From the NCBI GenBank assembly GCA_003154115.1, contig PMCF01000293.1, forward strand, positions 7,994 through 61,326: a stretch of 53,333 nt of DNA, in the 5' to 3' direction. A program made the position numbers and the translations under genes. The stretch is from Anaerolineae bacterium. GTDB lineage: Bacteria > Chloroflexota > Anaerolineae > Fen-1058. Of this stretch, positions 46,289-52,474 are shown one piece after another. Under the pieces are notes generated by a model. It made no database searches, was not told the origin of the DNA, and worked only from the letters and a program-made list of their open reading frames with translations. Every line of letters begins with the position of its first letter. Position 1 is the stretch's first letter.

Positions 46289-47776
46289 ATGACTGGTGAA
46301 CAACTCTTATACGGCCTGTGGGCCATTTTCCCTGAAGTGGTCTTGCTGCTGGTGGGCCTCCTCGTCATCTCGATCGATTTGATCCGGCGCCGCCGCGCCA
46401 ACGCGCGCCTGTTCGGCTATCTGACGATCGGCGGCGCGACGCTGGCTCTGGTGGTGGTGGGCTATCAGATGATCAACGGCCTGCCTGAGCCGTATGCCTT
46501 TTCGGGCATGGTGCGCCTCGATATGTTCTCGCAGATGTTCAACGTGCTGTTCCTCATCGCGTTGATTCTGGCCGTCTTCATCTCGCTGGACGTGAAGGGC
46601 CTGAAGACCAACGGTGAATTCTATGGCCTGATGATCTTCAGCACGGTGGGCATGGGCTTCATGGCCCTGGCCAACAACATCGTCATGTTGTATGTGGGTC
46701 TGGAAACGACGAGTATTGTGCTGTACATGCTGGCGGGCTTCATTCGCGAATCGCGCGTCTCGACCGAGGCCGGCATCAAGTATTTCCTGTTCGGCGCGTT
46801 CACGTCCACGGTTTTGCTGTACGGCCTGAGCTTGCTGTTCGGCTTTACGGGCGGCAAGACCAATTACGGCGAGATTATGCTGGCCGTACAGCATTTGGCG
46901 GCGGGCCAGGAAACGCTGCCGTTGATGGTGGTGCTGGTTTTGATCACGGTCGGGTTTGGTTTCAAAGTGGCGGCGGTGCCGTTCCACATGTGGACGCCGG
47001 ATGTGTACGAAGGCGCGCCCACGCCGATTACGGCCTTCATCTCGGTGGCGTCGAAGGCGGCGGGCTTTGCCGTGTTCATCCGCTTTTTCCTGATCGTCTT
47101 GGGGCCGCTGCAAGAGCAGTGGATTGGTCTCGTCGCCATTTTGGCGGCGGTGACGATGACGCTGGGCAATCTGGTGGCGCTGCAGCAGCGCAACTTCAAG
47201 CGTATGCTGGCCTACTCGTCCATCGCGCAAGCGGGCTATATCTTGATTGGCGTGGCCGCCGTCGGAGAGTTGGGCACGGCCGCCGTGTTGTTTTATCTGA
47301 GCGCTTACGTGCTGACGAATATCACGGCGTTTGCCGTGGCCGAAATCGCGACGAATGCCACCGGCAGCGAATTGATCAAGGATATGGCTGGGCTTAGCCG
47401 GCGCGCTCCCGGCATCGCCTTTGCCCTGTTGGCGGCGATGCTGTCACTGGCGGGCGTGCCGCCGCTGGCCGGTTTCTTTGCCAAGTTCTATATTTTTCAG
47501 GCCGCGATCGGCTATACCAATCCGCTGGGTCAGCATGCGCTGATCTGGCTGGCCATTGTGGGTGTGTTGAACAGCATCGTGGCGCTGTACTACTACCTGG
47601 TGGTCTTGAAGGTGGCGTATGTCGATCGGGCGGAGGGCGAAGATGTCCCGCTCCACACTAGCGGCGGGTTCAAGTTCGCGCTGTTCGTCACGGTGGCCGG
47701 TATGCTGATCATGGGGGTGTTCGCCACACCCGTGTATAACCTGTCCACGCTGGCCGCGCAGGTGTTCACGCACTGA
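46289..47776 (+). CDS. nuoN: NADH-quinone oxidoreductase subunit N
   Basis: 495 residues and about 14 helices. MLYVGLETTSIVLYMLAGFI (helix 5 Glu), KVAAVPFHMWTPDVYEGAPT PITAFISVASKAAGFAVFIR and KRMLAYSSIAQAGYILIGVA are NuoN signatures (FHMWTPDVYEGAPTP is diagnostic). The gene begins 6 bp after the second nuoM and ends the nuo operon. No clear terminator follows; the atp promoter lies in the gap. Confidence 0.97.
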   Translation: MTGEQLLYGLWAIFPEVVLLLVGLLVISIDLIRRRRANARLFGYLTIGGATLALVVVGYQMINGLPEPYAFSGMVRLDMFSQMFNVLFLIALILAVFISLDVKGLKTNGEFYGLMIFSTVGMGFMALANNIVMLYVGLETTSIVLYMLAGFIRESRVSTEAGIKYFLFGAFTSTVLLYGLSLLFGFTGGKTNYGEIMLAVQHLAAGQETLPLMVVLVLITVGFGFKVAAVPFHMWTPDVYEGAPTPITAFISVASKAAGFAVFIRFFLIVLGPLQEQWIGLVAILAAVTMTLGNLVALQQRNFKRMLAYSSIAQAGYILIGVAAVGELGTAAVLFYLSAYVLTNITAFAVAEIATNATGSELIKDMAGLSRRAPGIAFALLAAMLSLAGVPPLAGFFAKFYIFQAAIGYTNPLGQHALIWLAIVGVLNSIVALYYYLVVLKVAYVDRAEGEDVPLHTSGGFKFALFVTVAGMLIMGVFATPVYNLSTLAAQVFTH

Positions 47777-47879: not shown

Positions 47880-48191
47880 ATGAGTGAGAATAAACCATCG
47901 CCGCCAACCTCCACAGAAGTGGTCTCCAAGACCCTGGCTCAAGGCAGTTTGATCGGGGTGCAGGCTGGTTGCGTAAGTGTCATCGTGGTGATTGCCGCGC
48001 TGGTGGCGGGGATGTTGCTCGATCGGGTCATCGGTACCCAGTACATTTTTACGCTCGGTTTGCTATTGCTGAGCATCCCGGTTAGCCTTGGGGCGATGGT
48101 GTACAGTGTGTTGCGCAGCACGCAAGCGCTGCGCTCGCAACCCGCAGCTCAGTCAACCAAGAAGGAGGACAGTCTTGAAAAGACCCATTAA
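47880..48191 (+). CDS. AtpZ/AtpI-like small membrane subunit of F0
   Basis: 103 residues with two membrane helices (CVSVIVVIAALVAGMLLDRV; YIFTLGLLLLSIPVSLGAMV) joined by the short DRVIGTQY loop, the pattern of AtpZ/AtpI-type proteins that precede atpB. They assist c-ring assembly or Mg transport. Its 3' end overlaps the atpB start by 17 bp and contains the atpB ribosome site (AAGGAGGAC). Confidence 0.8.
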   Translation: MSENKPSPPTSTEVVSKTLAQGSLIGVQAGCVSVIVVIAALVAGMLLDRVIGTQYIFTLGLLLLSIPVSLGAMVYSVLRSTQALRSQPAAQSTKKEDSLEKTH

Positions 48192-49185
48192 GTGGCTCAT
48201 CTTTATCGGGCTAATCGTGTTTTCCTGCGCGTGGATGGGCAGCCCTCTGATCAACTTCGGCAAGTTTCCGGTCATTAAGCTTCCGTCGGAAACGGTCTTC
48301 TCGATCGGGCCGTTGACGGTGACGAACACGCTCATCACGACGGTGATTGCCGACATCGCGCTGCTCACGTTTGCGTTCGTGGCAACCCGCAAGATTCGGC
48401 GCGGTTCACCGGATGCCGAAGTGCCGCGCGGAGCGCAAAACATCTTTGAATTGCTGATCGACATGCTGTACAGTCTCAGCAAGAGCGTGGCCGGTTCCAA
48501 GGCGATGAAGGTCTTCCCGTGGATGGCGACCATTTTCTTGTTCGTCCTGTTTGCGAACTGGACTGAGCTGTTCCCTGGTATTGATAGCATCGGCCTGATC
48601 GAGCGGGCGCATGAAGGAACAGGTTACCCTAAGCAGGAGATCGTCCCCGGCTTCCTGTATACAATTGATCAAGGACAGGGTAAGGAGATCACCATTCCTG
48701 CTACTGCCAGTCAATCGACTGAGTCTAGCGCCGGGCAGCCCGAAGCCTATCAAGTATTGCCTTTCTTCCGTACTCCAACCAGCGACATTAACACGACCTT
48801 GGCTTTGGCCCTGATTACCATGTTCATGGTGCAAGTCTTTGGTGTGCGCGCACTGGGCGGTCACTACTTCTATAAGTTCGTGAACATTCCCGAATTGAAG
48901 CGCGGCGGTCTGGGCTACATGATGTTCATCGTCGGTTTCCTGGAGTTGATTTCAGAAGTCGCCCGCATTCTCTCGTTTACCTTCCGTCTTTTGGGCAATA
49001 TCTTTGCGGGCGGCGTGCTGTTGTTGGTGATGGCCTACATCGTGCCGTTCTTCGTCCCTATACCGTTCCTGGGCTTGGAGTTATTCGTGGGCTTCATCCA
49101 GGCGCTGGTGTTTGCCATGCTGGCCCTGGTCTTCATGAATATGGCCATGCAAGGTCACGGCGATCACGAAGCGGAACATCACTAG
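48175..49185 (+). CDS. atpB: ATP synthase F0 subunit a
   Basis: 336 residues. TTG 48175 is the likely start: AAGGAGGAC lies directly upstream and the next residues (KRPIKWLIFIGLIVFS) begin the protein. The essential arginine helix is ILSFTFRLLGNIFAGGVLLL, and the final helix FVGFIQALVFAMLALVFMNM carries the conserved Gln. The loop between helices 2 and 3 is enlarged (about 60 residues, with DQGQGKEITIPATASQ). The C-terminus is His-rich (GHGDHEAEHH). It forms the proton half-channels against the c-ring. Confidence 0.95.
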   Translation: MKRPIKWLIFIGLIVFSCAWMGSPLINFGKFPVIKLPSETVFSIGPLTVTNTLITTVIADIALLTFAFVATRKIRRGSPDAEVPRGAQNIFELLIDMLYSLSKSVAGSKAMKVFPWMATIFLFVLFANWTELFPGIDSIGLIERAHEGTGYPKQEIVPGFLYTIDQGQGKEITIPATASQSTESSAGQPEAYQVLPFFRTPTSDINTTLALALITMFMVQVFGVRALGGHYFYKFVNIPELKRGGLGYMMFIVGFLELISEVARILSFTFRLLGNIFAGGVLLLVMAYIVPFFVPIPFLGLELFVGFIQALVFAMLALVFMNMAMQGHGDHEAEHH

Positions 49186-49276: not shown

Positions 49277-49519
49277 ATGGAACAGGCTCTTGTTAACGCG
49301 ATTCGATATTTGGGTGCGGGTTTGGCGATCGGTCTGGGTGCGATCGGGCCGGGCATCGGCATCGGCATTCTGATGCAGGGCGCACTGCAGGCCATGGGCC
49401 GCAACCCCGATGCGTCGTCCAACATCCAGACGAACATGATCCTGGGTGTGGCCTTTGCCGAAGCGATCGCGATTTACGCGCTCGTCGTCGCGCTGATCCT
49501 GATGTTCGTCGTCAAATAA
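49277..49519 (+). CDS. atpE: ATP synthase F0 subunit c
   Basis: 80 residues, two helices with the polar loop GRNPD. GLGAIGPGIGIGILMQGALQ is helix 1, and VAFAEAIAIYALVVALILMF carries the ion-binding Glu 62 in helix 2. The helix 1 position that is Gln in sodium-binding c subunits is Ile here, and Glu 62 is followed by Ala rather than Ser, so a proton is the expected coupling ion. GGAGG lies about ten bases upstream of the ATG. Confidence 0.97.
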   Translation: MEQALVNAIRYLGAGLAIGLGAIGPGIGIGILMQGALQAMGRNPDASSNIQTNMILGVAFAEAIAIYALVVALILMFVVK

Positions 49520-49532
49520 AGGGAGGTGACGT

Positions 49533-50264
49533 GTGGAAGGGTTAGGCATTAACCTCACGCTGCTCGTCGCTCAGATCTTCAACTTCTTCATTTTGTTTTT
49601 GATCCTGAGCGCGGTAGCGTATAAACCGATGGTGAAGTTCCTCGACGGCCGGCGCGAGAAGATCGCGAAGGGGCTGGAGGATGCGCGCAAGGCCGAAGAG
49701 CGTCTGGCGAATATCGAGAAGGACTATCAGATGCGCATGGATGCGGCCCGCGCCGATGCGCAGAAGATGGTGGCCGATCTGACCGCCAATGCCGAGAAGA
49801 ACGCCGGGGCGATCGTGGCGAAGGCCAACGAAGACGCGGCGAAGATCAAGGCGACGGGGCAGGAAGAGGCCGAGACCGAGCGCAACAAGGCCCTGGCCGA
49901 TCTGCGTTCGCAGGTGGTCGCGCTGTCGATGGCCGCCGCGAACAAGCTGATCGGCGCGTCGATGGACGAAAAGCGCCAGCGAGCTTTGGTGGACGAGTTC
50001 TTCAGCGGCGTGAAGGCGGGCAAGGTCGTTTTGCTCGAACCGGGCGTCGGCGGGGCTGGCAAAGCCGAAGTGACCTCGGCGCTGCCGTTATCGGCTGATG
50101 AGCAATCGGCCATTAAGAGTGACCTGACCGGACGCGGCGCGAGTGAAGTGGCTTTCAAGGTCGATCCCAAGATTTTGGGCGGTTTGGTGGTGCGCGTGGG
50201 TGATCGCGTCGTAGATGCCTCCGTATCAGGTCAACTGGAGTCGCTCAAACAAAGCCTGGGCTAG
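49533..50264 (+). CDS. atpF: ATP synthase subunit b fused to the C-terminal part of delta
   Basis: 243 residues, against about 160 for a standard b subunit. Residues 8-30 form the membrane helix, then a long charged helix follows (KFLDGRREKIAKGLEDARKA; DYQMRMDAARADAQKMVADL; to about residue 150). From residue 178 the sequence is AEVTSALPLSADEQSAIKSD LTGRGASEVAFKVDPKILGG and then LVVRVGDRVVDASVSGQLES, the unmistakable end of the delta/OSCP subunit. The N-terminal six-helix bundle of delta is missing. The gene begins with GTG after GGGAGGTGAC and ends the operon; no separate atpH, A, G, D or C follows. Confidence 0.92.
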   Translation: MEGLGINLTLLVAQIFNFFILFLILSAVAYKPMVKFLDGRREKIAKGLEDARKAEERLANIEKDYQMRMDAARADAQKMVADLTANAEKNAGAIVAKANEDAAKIKATGQEEAETERNKALADLRSQVVALSMAAANKLIGASMDEKRQRALVDEFFSGVKAGKVVLLEPGVGGAGKAEVTSALPLSADEQSAIKSDLTGRGASEVAFKVDPKILGGLVVRVGDRVVDASVSGQLESLKQSLG

Positions 50265-50464: not shown

Positions 50465-52474
50465 ATGCCTATCCGAAGCGGATTTCTGATATTCACCAGC
50501 CTGATGTTTATCGCGTGTGAAACTCCACGCCCCATTGGTACACCTTTGCCAACCGCGACAGTTGTCCTCACAACAACGACCGTTGTATCAACGGTGATGA
50601 TACAGCCTGTTCGAACGGATACGTCAGCCCCCACGCGTTCCACCGCAGCCCTCTCAACACCAACGATAGTTTGGCCTACTCCGGTTCCATCTGCAACTCC
50701 ACATACGCCTGGCGTGCCGAGTGGAGTTCCTGTGCCTCAACCCGCTGAGCCGATTACGCCTGAGAATGTTACGCGTGTTGCAGAATTGGCTCGCTGGGGA
50801 AAGGGTAGGATTTCAAAAGTCGCCTATTCGGAAGACGGCAAAACATTGATCGTGACATCTTCTGTTGGAACCTACTTATACGATACGCTTTCTCTGAAAG
50901 AGATTGGTTCATCTCACGACTCGGATGCGACTCCGGTGAAGACGCTCTCGCAGGAATGCAATACAATAGCAAACAACAAGGAAAAGGTCATTGCTTGTTC
51001 GTCTGATAATCAGACAGCCGTTGTTGGAGAACAAGGATCTTTAAGGCTAATCTCAGTTGTTGGAAAGGTGCTGAAACAAGTCGAGTTCCCCGAAGATCGT
51101 CAATGGGAGGTCGCTCAGAAAATCATCTTCACTCCTCAACTGGTGGTCGCCCTCAGCGTCGAGAACGGCACGATTTTTATCTGGCACTTGAATGATGACG
51201 CTTTGATTGTTGTTCCAGGGTTTGGATGGGGGAATCTCGCTATATCGCCAGATGGTAAGCGCATTGCTGCTGGATACGACGACGGCTGGGTGCGTCTCTA
51301 TGATACACGCGATGGAAAACTGCTCCGCACGTTGAAAGGCCATGACGTTGGCGAGGCCTGGGCTGTGTTCTCGCCGGACAACACTACACTCGTCACCGCC
51401 TCCCAGGATGGCGTCATTCGTTTGTGGCGAGCAAGTGATGGGGAATTTTTGCAGTCGCTGCCCGGCCACGCCAATCCTGCGCCAGTTGCTCCTGTTGTAT
51501 TTAACCAAGAAGTGTTAGTCTCGGCCAGTGAGCGTACCATTCAGATTCGACGAATGTCGGATGGCGGCATCACGCATTTGTTTGAAGTTCCAGCAAATGG
51601 CAATCCACGAACAAATTTCGAAGGGCCAGTTGGCAGGGTAACCACCCTAGCTCTATCACTTGATGGTAGCACATTTGCGGCTGGGACGGATGATGGCTTG
51701 ATTCGTCTATGGAAAGCTGCTGATGCCTCGTTCATCAAGACGATCGATAATCATTGTCCAACATGGGATCGCTTGTACTTCTCGCAGGATAGGAAGAAAA
51801 TAACAACTTGGGGTTACTCGTTGGGGTGCAGCACAGTGAGCTTATTGCAAACCGGCAGTGGATTGCCGCTGTTCACGGATGATGGAACCGAGCTGGCAGT
51901 ATCCCTGGATGGCAGCAAAATCGCCTATTCAAAAAAAGGTATCAACGTCCGGGATGGTATGGATGGAAAGCCGTTAGCTTCATTTGATTCTGGTCGATGG
52001 TCTGGGGCGAAAGGCCTGGTTTTTGCGCCAGATAATCAGACTCTTTTGACGATTAGTACAAGCGGCTTCACAGACTTATGGCAGGCTGACAGCGGTAAAC
52101 ATCTTGGCACGCTTGAACCTAATCTATCCGGGGTTCACGGAGTAGCATTTTCATCGGATGGGCAGCTCATGGCCGCCATCTCATCGGTCGGGCAGATTGG
52201 ACTCTGGCGAACATCCGATTGGACTCGACTCAACCTGTTTAAGGACTACATCCCCAACGAATCATCTCTGATTTTCTCACCCGATGGACGGCTTGTGATC
52301 ACGGCTTCTGGAGCTGGTATGATGCGTTTCTGGCGAGTGGTAGATGGTACTCTGCTGCATGCCATTCAGGGTGTCGAGGCTAATCAACTGGCCTTTGTGC
52401 GAAATGATCTATTGATGACCGCGGGATTTGATGGCACAATACGCCTGTGGGGTATTTCATCCCGTACAAAATGA
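50465..52474 (+). CDS. WD40-repeat lipoprotein
   Basis: 669 residues. A short signal sequence (MPIRSGFLIFTSLMFIAC) carries a lipobox ending in Cys 18, then a Thr/Pro/Val-rich stalk. About ten WD40-like blades follow, with repeated SPDGKRIAAGYDDGWVRLYD, SPDNTTLVTASQDGVIRLWR, SLDGSTFAAGTDDGLIRLWK and SPDGRLVITASGAGMMRFWR. The C-terminal blade ends TAGFDGTIRLWG. It is an outer-face scaffold, likely binding proteins; no enzyme motif is present. A promoter-like TATATT lies near 50401. Codon use is A+T-richer than the atp genes, as in the other propeller lipoproteins here. Confidence 0.87.
   Translation: MPIRSGFLIFTSLMFIACETPRPIGTPLPTATVVLTTTTVVSTVMIQPVRTDTSAPTRSTAALSTPTIVWPTPVPSATPHTPGVPSGVPVPQPAEPITPENVTRVAELARWGKGRISKVAYSEDGKTLIVTSSVGTYLYDTLSLKEIGSSHDSDATPVKTLSQECNTIANNKEKVIACSSDNQTAVVGEQGSLRLISVVGKVLKQVEFPEDRQWEVAQKIIFTPQLVVALSVENGTIFIWHLNDDALIVVPGFGWGNLAISPDGKRIAAGYDDGWVRLYDTRDGKLLRTLKGHDVGEAWAVFSPDNTTLVTASQDGVIRLWRASDGEFLQSLPGHANPAPVAPVVFNQEVLVSASERTIQIRRMSDGGITHLFEVPANGNPRTNFEGPVGRVTTLALSLDGSTFAAGTDDGLIRLWKAADASFIKTIDNHCPTWDRLYFSQDRKKITTWGYSLGCSTVSLLQTGSGLPLFTDDGTELAVSLDGSKIAYSKKGINVRDGMDGKPLASFDSGRWSGAKGLVFAPDNQTLLTISTSGFTDLWQADSGKHLGTLEPNLSGVHGVAFSSDGQLMAAISSVGQIGLWRTSDWTRLNLFKDYIPNESSLIFSPDGRLVITASGAGMMRFWRVVDGTLLHAIQGVEANQLAFVRNDLLMTAGFDGTIRLWGISSRTK

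Follow-up and report, generated by a model that had tools for sequence, protein, structure and literature searches.

An Anaerolineae ATP synthase subunit b fused to the C-terminal domain of delta, with no delta N-terminal domain found in the genome

In a bacterium of the class Anaerolineae, subunit b of the F-type ATP synthase is fused to the C-terminal domain (CTD) of subunit delta/OSCP. The N-terminal domain (NTD) of delta accompanies it neither in the fused chain nor, according to our searches, elsewhere in the genome. With a probability of about 0.75, we interpret the protein as part of a functional stator that has no NTD and docks onto F1 through delta CTDs. The gene is located in a stretch of 53,333 nucleotides of contig PMCF01000293.1 (assembly GCA_003154115.1), here called the window.

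In other enzymes, the delta CTD caps the b2 dimer and binds one alpha N-terminus. The NTD normally fills the central hollow atop alpha3beta3 and is the binding partner of the two remaining alpha N-termini. It is regarded as the standard grip of the stator on F1 and, since 2025, also as the feature that restricts F-type enzymes to a single stalk. Much of one bacterial class has no NTD in its apparent main ATP synthase, and living intermediates exist in the same phylum. These organisms provide natural material for studying the hold of the stator on F1 without an NTD, the number of stalks and the evolution of the H+/ATP ratio through stator number besides c-ring size.

The fusion gene and its domains

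The window contains an F0 gene cluster of order nuo...-atpI-atpB-atpE-atpF, with the fusion gene in last position. The features are as follows.

46289..47776, + strand: nuoN-like complex I gene (PF00361), upstream of the F0 cluster
47880..48191, + strand: atpI-like gene (weak PF09527 match; position before atpB)
48175..49185, + strand: atpB, subunit a (PF00119); likely TTG start at 48175, longer frame from 48088
49277..49519, + strand: atpE, subunit c, 80 aa (PF00137)
49533..50264, + strand: b-deltaCTD fusion gene (PF00430 and PF00213), kept in relatives
49533..50006, + strand: b domain, residues 1-158, membrane anchor and long stator helix
50007..50057, + strand: linker, residues 159-175, predicted disordered (pLDDT <50 throughout); length varies among relatives
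50058..50264, + strand: delta/OSCP CTD, residues 176-243 (stop included)

The fusion ORF encodes 243 residues, from a GTG start at 49533 to a stop ending at 50264. It begins 13 bp past the atpE stop, and a ribosome-binding-like GGGAGGTGA is present upstream. The Pfam profile of subunit b (PF00430) matches residues 11-140 with an E-value of 4.5e-27, and the b-only model PRK14473 aligns with residues 1-156. Thus, b is complete and the delta CTD has been added after it. The delta/OSCP profile (PF00213) matches residues 177-242 (E 1.7e-17), covering only profile positions 104-172 of 172. A first, sequence-only reading of this DNA had described a b subunit extended by the C-terminal part of delta alone, with the NTD missing from the chain, and the profile scan that it suggested agrees on both points. 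It had placed the extension at residue 178, with a length of about 66 residues; the delta identity stands, but the start has to be moved to about residue 176, giving 67-68 residues. As also stated there, no atpH follows: the next gene, at window positions 50465-52474, encodes a WD40-repeat protein. It may carry a lipoprotein signal, and part of it is rich in Thr and Pro.

AlphaFold2 predicts a single helix at residues 8-161, then the disordered linker, then the CTD. The order of elements in the CTD model, strand-helix-strand-strand-strand-helix, is that expected for a delta CTD; pLDDT values are low there (about 50-70), so that only the fold class was retained from the model. The CTD matches delta/OSCP chains of the PDB by both sequence and fold, including those of Chloroflexus, Bacillus PS3, E. 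coli and the mycobacterial b-delta protein. Overall, the window protein has the N-terminal anchor and long helical domain of F-type subunit b (PF00430) and the CTD of delta/OSCP (PF00213). The six-helix delta NTD is absent from the ORF according to Pfam and was not found in the genome by the profile searches described below.

The sequence of atpE does not show the S-T pair of the Na+ type past the essential Glu, so that the c subunit is probably H+-coupled.

Search for a separate delta NTD

The source assembly (7.7 Mb) is 96% complete and fragmented, with 8.5% contamination. In the whole assembly, the window ORF is the sole significant match to PF00213 and the sole real match to PF00430; in particular, no separate, complete atpH was found. 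The window protein is the stator subunit of the only F-type ATP synthase of this organism. The alpha, gamma, beta and epsilon genes are found as a set on another contig, C21, where the alpha, beta and epsilon frames are broken because of runs of N. Alpha and gamma are intact in G001, an assembly from the same genus.

A profile was built from 22 Anaerolineae delta NTDs. Against the source genome it gave no significant match, the best one (E 0.03, 17 bits) being within an 827-aa frame. No significant match was obtained either when the search was carried out over 28 genomes with the fusion (the source and 27 others) and six genomes with a CTD-only, "mini" delta. The same profile recognized the delta of all five canonical control genomes, with E-values of 1e-28 to 6e-35. 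Two of the fused genomes, G013 and G183, are single contigs, and no NTD was found there either. The sequence-only reading had offered two alternatives, an NTD encoded elsewhere or a different contact between stator and F1. The searches in the 28 fused genomes lead us to reject a free delta NTD elsewhere. A different stator-F1 contact is therefore the likelier of the two, the contact itself being one that we infer.

Distribution of the fusion and forms of delta

The same fusion protein, with 43-53% identity, is present in four named public records: Anaerolinea sp. D180_metabat.33, Anaerolineae bacterium ACE_NR_CHLO5, Chloroflexi bacterium OLB15 and Anaerolineae bacterium CFX9. Of 247 genomes of the class, 235 gave a PF00213 match. 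In 92 of these 235 the E-value is below 1e-22, mostly with a near-full profile, and in the rest the match is weaker and mostly restricted to the CTD; these E-value classes are no strict count of architectures, as the weaker remainder also contains N-ATPase b subunits and short separate deltas. The loci take several forms.

Form A: canonical order a-c-b-delta-alpha-gamma-beta
Form B: separate gene for a CTD-only delta of 83-135 aa, directly 3' of b (families f27, f33, f34 and f37; outside the class, f60)
Form C: b-deltaCTD fusion, with the F0 genes apart from the F1 genes
Form D: N-ATPase operons, with a b of about 260 aa made of PF00430 and the PF00213 CTD

The fusion is not peculiar to the source genome: it is common to many Anaerolineae families, and its layout is also that of N-ATPase b. 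Fused loci were found in families f1, f4, f5, f9, f10, f19, f25, f31, f32 and f43 to f52. In form B, several delta start codons overlap the stop codon of b (L056, L062, L157). Chloroflexia-like families have a reduced delta, of 118 aa in f71 and 157 aa in f61. Ahead of its CTD, the f71 protein (L149, L150) seems to retain just the first and the last of the NTD helices. Loss of the NTD may have followed a stepwise route, from a reduced delta to a free CTD-only delta and then to the b-deltaCTD fusion.

An alpha gene immediately following the delta-CTD gene is seen in none of the 29 fused loci, versus all 43 canonical loci with enough flanking sequence; since the fusion and the splitting of the operon go back to few events, these counts are not independent. 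Two of seven mini loci were scored as having alpha "not next" solely because the automatic start of the alpha ORF overlaps delta. One genome, G068, has two F0 clusters with b-deltaCTD (L058, L059), reflecting duplication or contamination.

Ancestry and selection

A tree was built from 84 alpha sequences. The N-ATPase alphas form a separate clade in it (support 100/100), and the alpha of the window genome is outside this clade. Twenty-four of 25 fused genomes belong to one clade (100/99), together with one mini-delta genome. The remaining one, from f5, is grouped with f37, a mini-delta family. Because f5 branches away from the main clade, the best tree implies two or more origins of the fusion. 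A single origin of the fusion (AU p 0.31) and a single origin of NTD loss within the fused and mini genomes (p 0.29) are not rejected, so that we do not claim multiple origins as shown.

On average, the window b domain is 35% identical to canonical Chloroflexota b versus 21% to N-ATPase b. Mean identity of the CTD is 43% to canonical Chloroflexota delta CTDs versus 34% to the CTD of N-ATPase b. Since both parts are nearer to the canonical proteins and alpha branches outside the N-ATPase clade, the b-deltaCTD layout was probably reached independently of N-ATPases.

The C-terminal extension is conserved far beyond chance. It is kept in all close relatives, and comparison of the window gene with its nearest relative gives dN/dS values of 0.12 for b and 0.05 for the CTD (simple counting, with synonymous sites of the CTD near saturation). 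These values point to strong purifying selection on the delta part of the fusion. In relatives, the CTD retains the delta signature V-D-P...GG...GD...D. The N-terminal helix of alpha in fused lineages has the same hydrophobic spacing as in canonical ones, and its mean pairwise identity is 0.39 in fused versus 0.40 in canonical lineages. Taken together, selection on the CTD and conservation of the alpha helix suggest that the joint has kept its CTD side, towards both b and alpha, and lost its NTD side.

Comparison with known stators

N-ATPase b (TIGR03321) resembles the window protein in having b followed by a delta-CTD-like domain, with no separate delta gene (PMC5706428, PMC4154653). N-ATPases have been described as lacking delta and having a longer b that resembles the A-type E subunit (PMC5706428). 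They differ from the window enzyme in that their alpha subunits form a clade of their own, they are usually an extra enzyme and their b has low identity to the window protein. The operons also differ, with beta-epsilon-(Q,R)-a-c-b-alpha-gamma in N-ATPases and, here, I-a-c-b on one contig and alpha-gamma-beta-epsilon on another. N-ATPase operons are frequent in Anaerolineae (L166, L170, L173, L174, L183, L188, L191, L192). N-ATPase b is the sole match to PF00213 in some genomes, even though descriptions of N-ATPases present them as additional to a main enzyme.

Mycobacterial b-delta (7jg5, 7njk etc.) also has b and delta in one chain, and its CTD matches that of the window protein by sequence and fold. 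However, it is 445 residues long, retains the delta NTD (PRK13428) and works with a second b, whereas the window protein has 243 residues, no NTD and a single b gene; the sequence-only reading was right to set the two apart. In delta-deltaN-alpha proteins, engineered in Bacillus PS3 (9jc1) or present as a fusion in Acidaminococcus fermentans, the NTD is gone and the CTD kept, as here, but the CTD is carried by alpha and not by b.

Chloroflexus aurantiacus belongs to the same phylum and has a shortened delta of 157 aa (9itj series). Among PDB chains, its b subunit matches the window b best. Unlike the window genome, it has a separate delta gene with a reduced NTD region, within a contiguous operon (L151, L152). 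Chain counts in the 9itj series are 6 gamma in 6 entries, 12 delta in 6, 36 a in 18 and 72 b in 18, which gives each gamma two delta, two a and four b. In 9itk, two delta chains are present over about 70 residues only, the length of a CTD. A 2025 paper reportedly describes the ATP synthase of Chloroflexus aurantiacus with a pair of peripheral stalks.

The E subunit of A/V-type enzymes and flagellar FliH share with the window protein a long helix ending in a small, head-binding C-terminal domain, and both are among its weak fold matches. E forms a heterodimer with G, and we claim no membership on such a weak structural similarity. Thermoflexus was reported to have no prototypical delta, a situation described as typical for certain other Chloroflexota (PMC8129789), and Dictyoglomi to have no delta (PMC4154653). 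A literature search, which covered few subscription papers, retrieved no account of main Chloroflexota ATP synthases with a b-deltaCTD fusion and no link of such a fusion to stalk number.

Proposed docking on F1 and number of stalks

As the N-terminal helix of alpha is retained, the stator most likely docks through the delta CTDs alone. Each b-deltaCTD chain comprises the b anchor and long helix, a short linker and the delta CTD. Because there is a single b gene, each b2 stalk would carry two CTDs. At the stalk tip, the retained alpha N-terminal helices would dock straight onto the CTDs, and the NTD would be lost from the crown, leaving the threefold axis without it. With this block gone, more than one b2 stalk could attach, each with its own subunit a. 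We infer the CTD-alpha contact, the presence of two CTDs per stalk and the stalk number.

In Bacillus PS3, one alpha N-terminus touches the delta CTD and two touch the NTD on the pseudo-threefold axis. The engineered delta-deltaN-alpha form of this enzyme has up to three stalks and up to three a subunits, with an H+/ATP ratio of 5.8, and natural multi-stalk enzymes were predicted from the Acidaminococcus fermentans fusion (PMC12229609). According to the same study, a multi-stalk enzyme should have no intact delta NTD on the axis, and no delta NTD was found in the window genome. Fused-type Anaerolineae enzymes may therefore be natural multi-stalk ATP synthases, with two or three b-deltaCTD stalks, an a subunit for each and a crown without NTD; this is a tentative proposal, to which we give not quite even odds. 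If true, the H+/ATP ratio would be higher, suited to a low proton motive force. Several points count against this picture of docking and stalk number. There is no simple way to pair the two CTDs of a b2 stalk with three alpha N-termini. Since a reduced NTD region is retained in Chloroflexus, its two-stalk form is no proof for an enzyme without NTD. The engineered Bacillus enzyme needed its CTD on alpha, whereas the window CTD is on b and its joint with alpha is non-covalent; the authors of that work worried that a truncated delta alone would not hold on alpha3beta3 (PMC12229609).

The main alternative is a single b2 stalk with one a subunit, in which the b homodimer uses its second CTD to fill or cover the site left by the NTD and to engage a second alpha N-terminus. 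It keeps the usual stoichiometry and accounts for the retained alpha helix and for the two CTDs that one b gene implies. However, the fold of the CTD has no relation to that of the six-helix NTD, nothing obvious would stop further stalks at a free axis, and multi-stalk assembly was seen once the NTD was removed (PMC12229609). We regard this arrangement as possible, at odds distinctly below even. The place of the NTD on the crown could also be taken by a protein from another locus that is unrelated or has diverged strongly, since profile searches are blind to such a protein and the alpha helix is retained even though its main known partner is gone. This seems unlikely, given the lack of a significant NTD match in the 28 fused genomes and of any small conserved gene beside the F1 or F0 clusters. 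Near F1 no conserved companion gene was found, the neighbours being mreB (after F1), a peptidase, a glycosyltransferase and unrelated genes.

Two other explanations concern the gene itself. Its b could come from, or be part of, an N-ATPase, which also has a long b and no delta. The N-ATPase model TIGR03321 (alternate F1F0 b) does align with residues 11-241, and Anaerolineae N-ATPase b combines PF00430 with PF00213 102-171. But the TIGR03321 score is 77.9 bits for a cut-off of 224.7, and gene order and the c subunit differ. Together with the position of alpha outside the N-ATPase clade and the lower identities of b and CTD reported above, this makes an N-ATPase origin very improbable, and we reject it. 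A sequencing or assembly artefact, in the form of a frameshift or deletion, might have joined ordinary b and delta genes, an idea that gains some ground from a fragmented and partly contaminated assembly. It is hardly credible, as independent assemblies, among them the single contigs of G013 and G183, have unbroken ORFs with this layout, again with no NTD. The artefact is rejected on this conservation, which also removes the frameshift that the sequence-only reading had named as a possible objection. The NTD-less stator docking through its delta CTDs is the reading that we retain.

Other features of the F1 operons

On C21, about 1.86 kb separate atpG from atpD (L014:6788-8645), versus about 80 bp in G001. 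This interval contains a PIN-domain gene and a Phd/YefM-like gene, likely a toxin-antitoxin pair inside the F1 operon. In family f4, a PMT-like glycosyltransferase gene is located between atpG and atpD (L138:7177-9021; also L139, L140). The gene mreB directly follows atpC in most fused-type F1 operons (L014:3836-4846, L125-L142). Finally, many fused lineages (f4, f9, f10, f25, f31, f47) have an insertion of 35-45 residues in alpha, just before GGSLTALP, which is absent in f1, f5 and f46; the pattern was seen in alpha genes L096, L097, L099, L100 and L102-L116.
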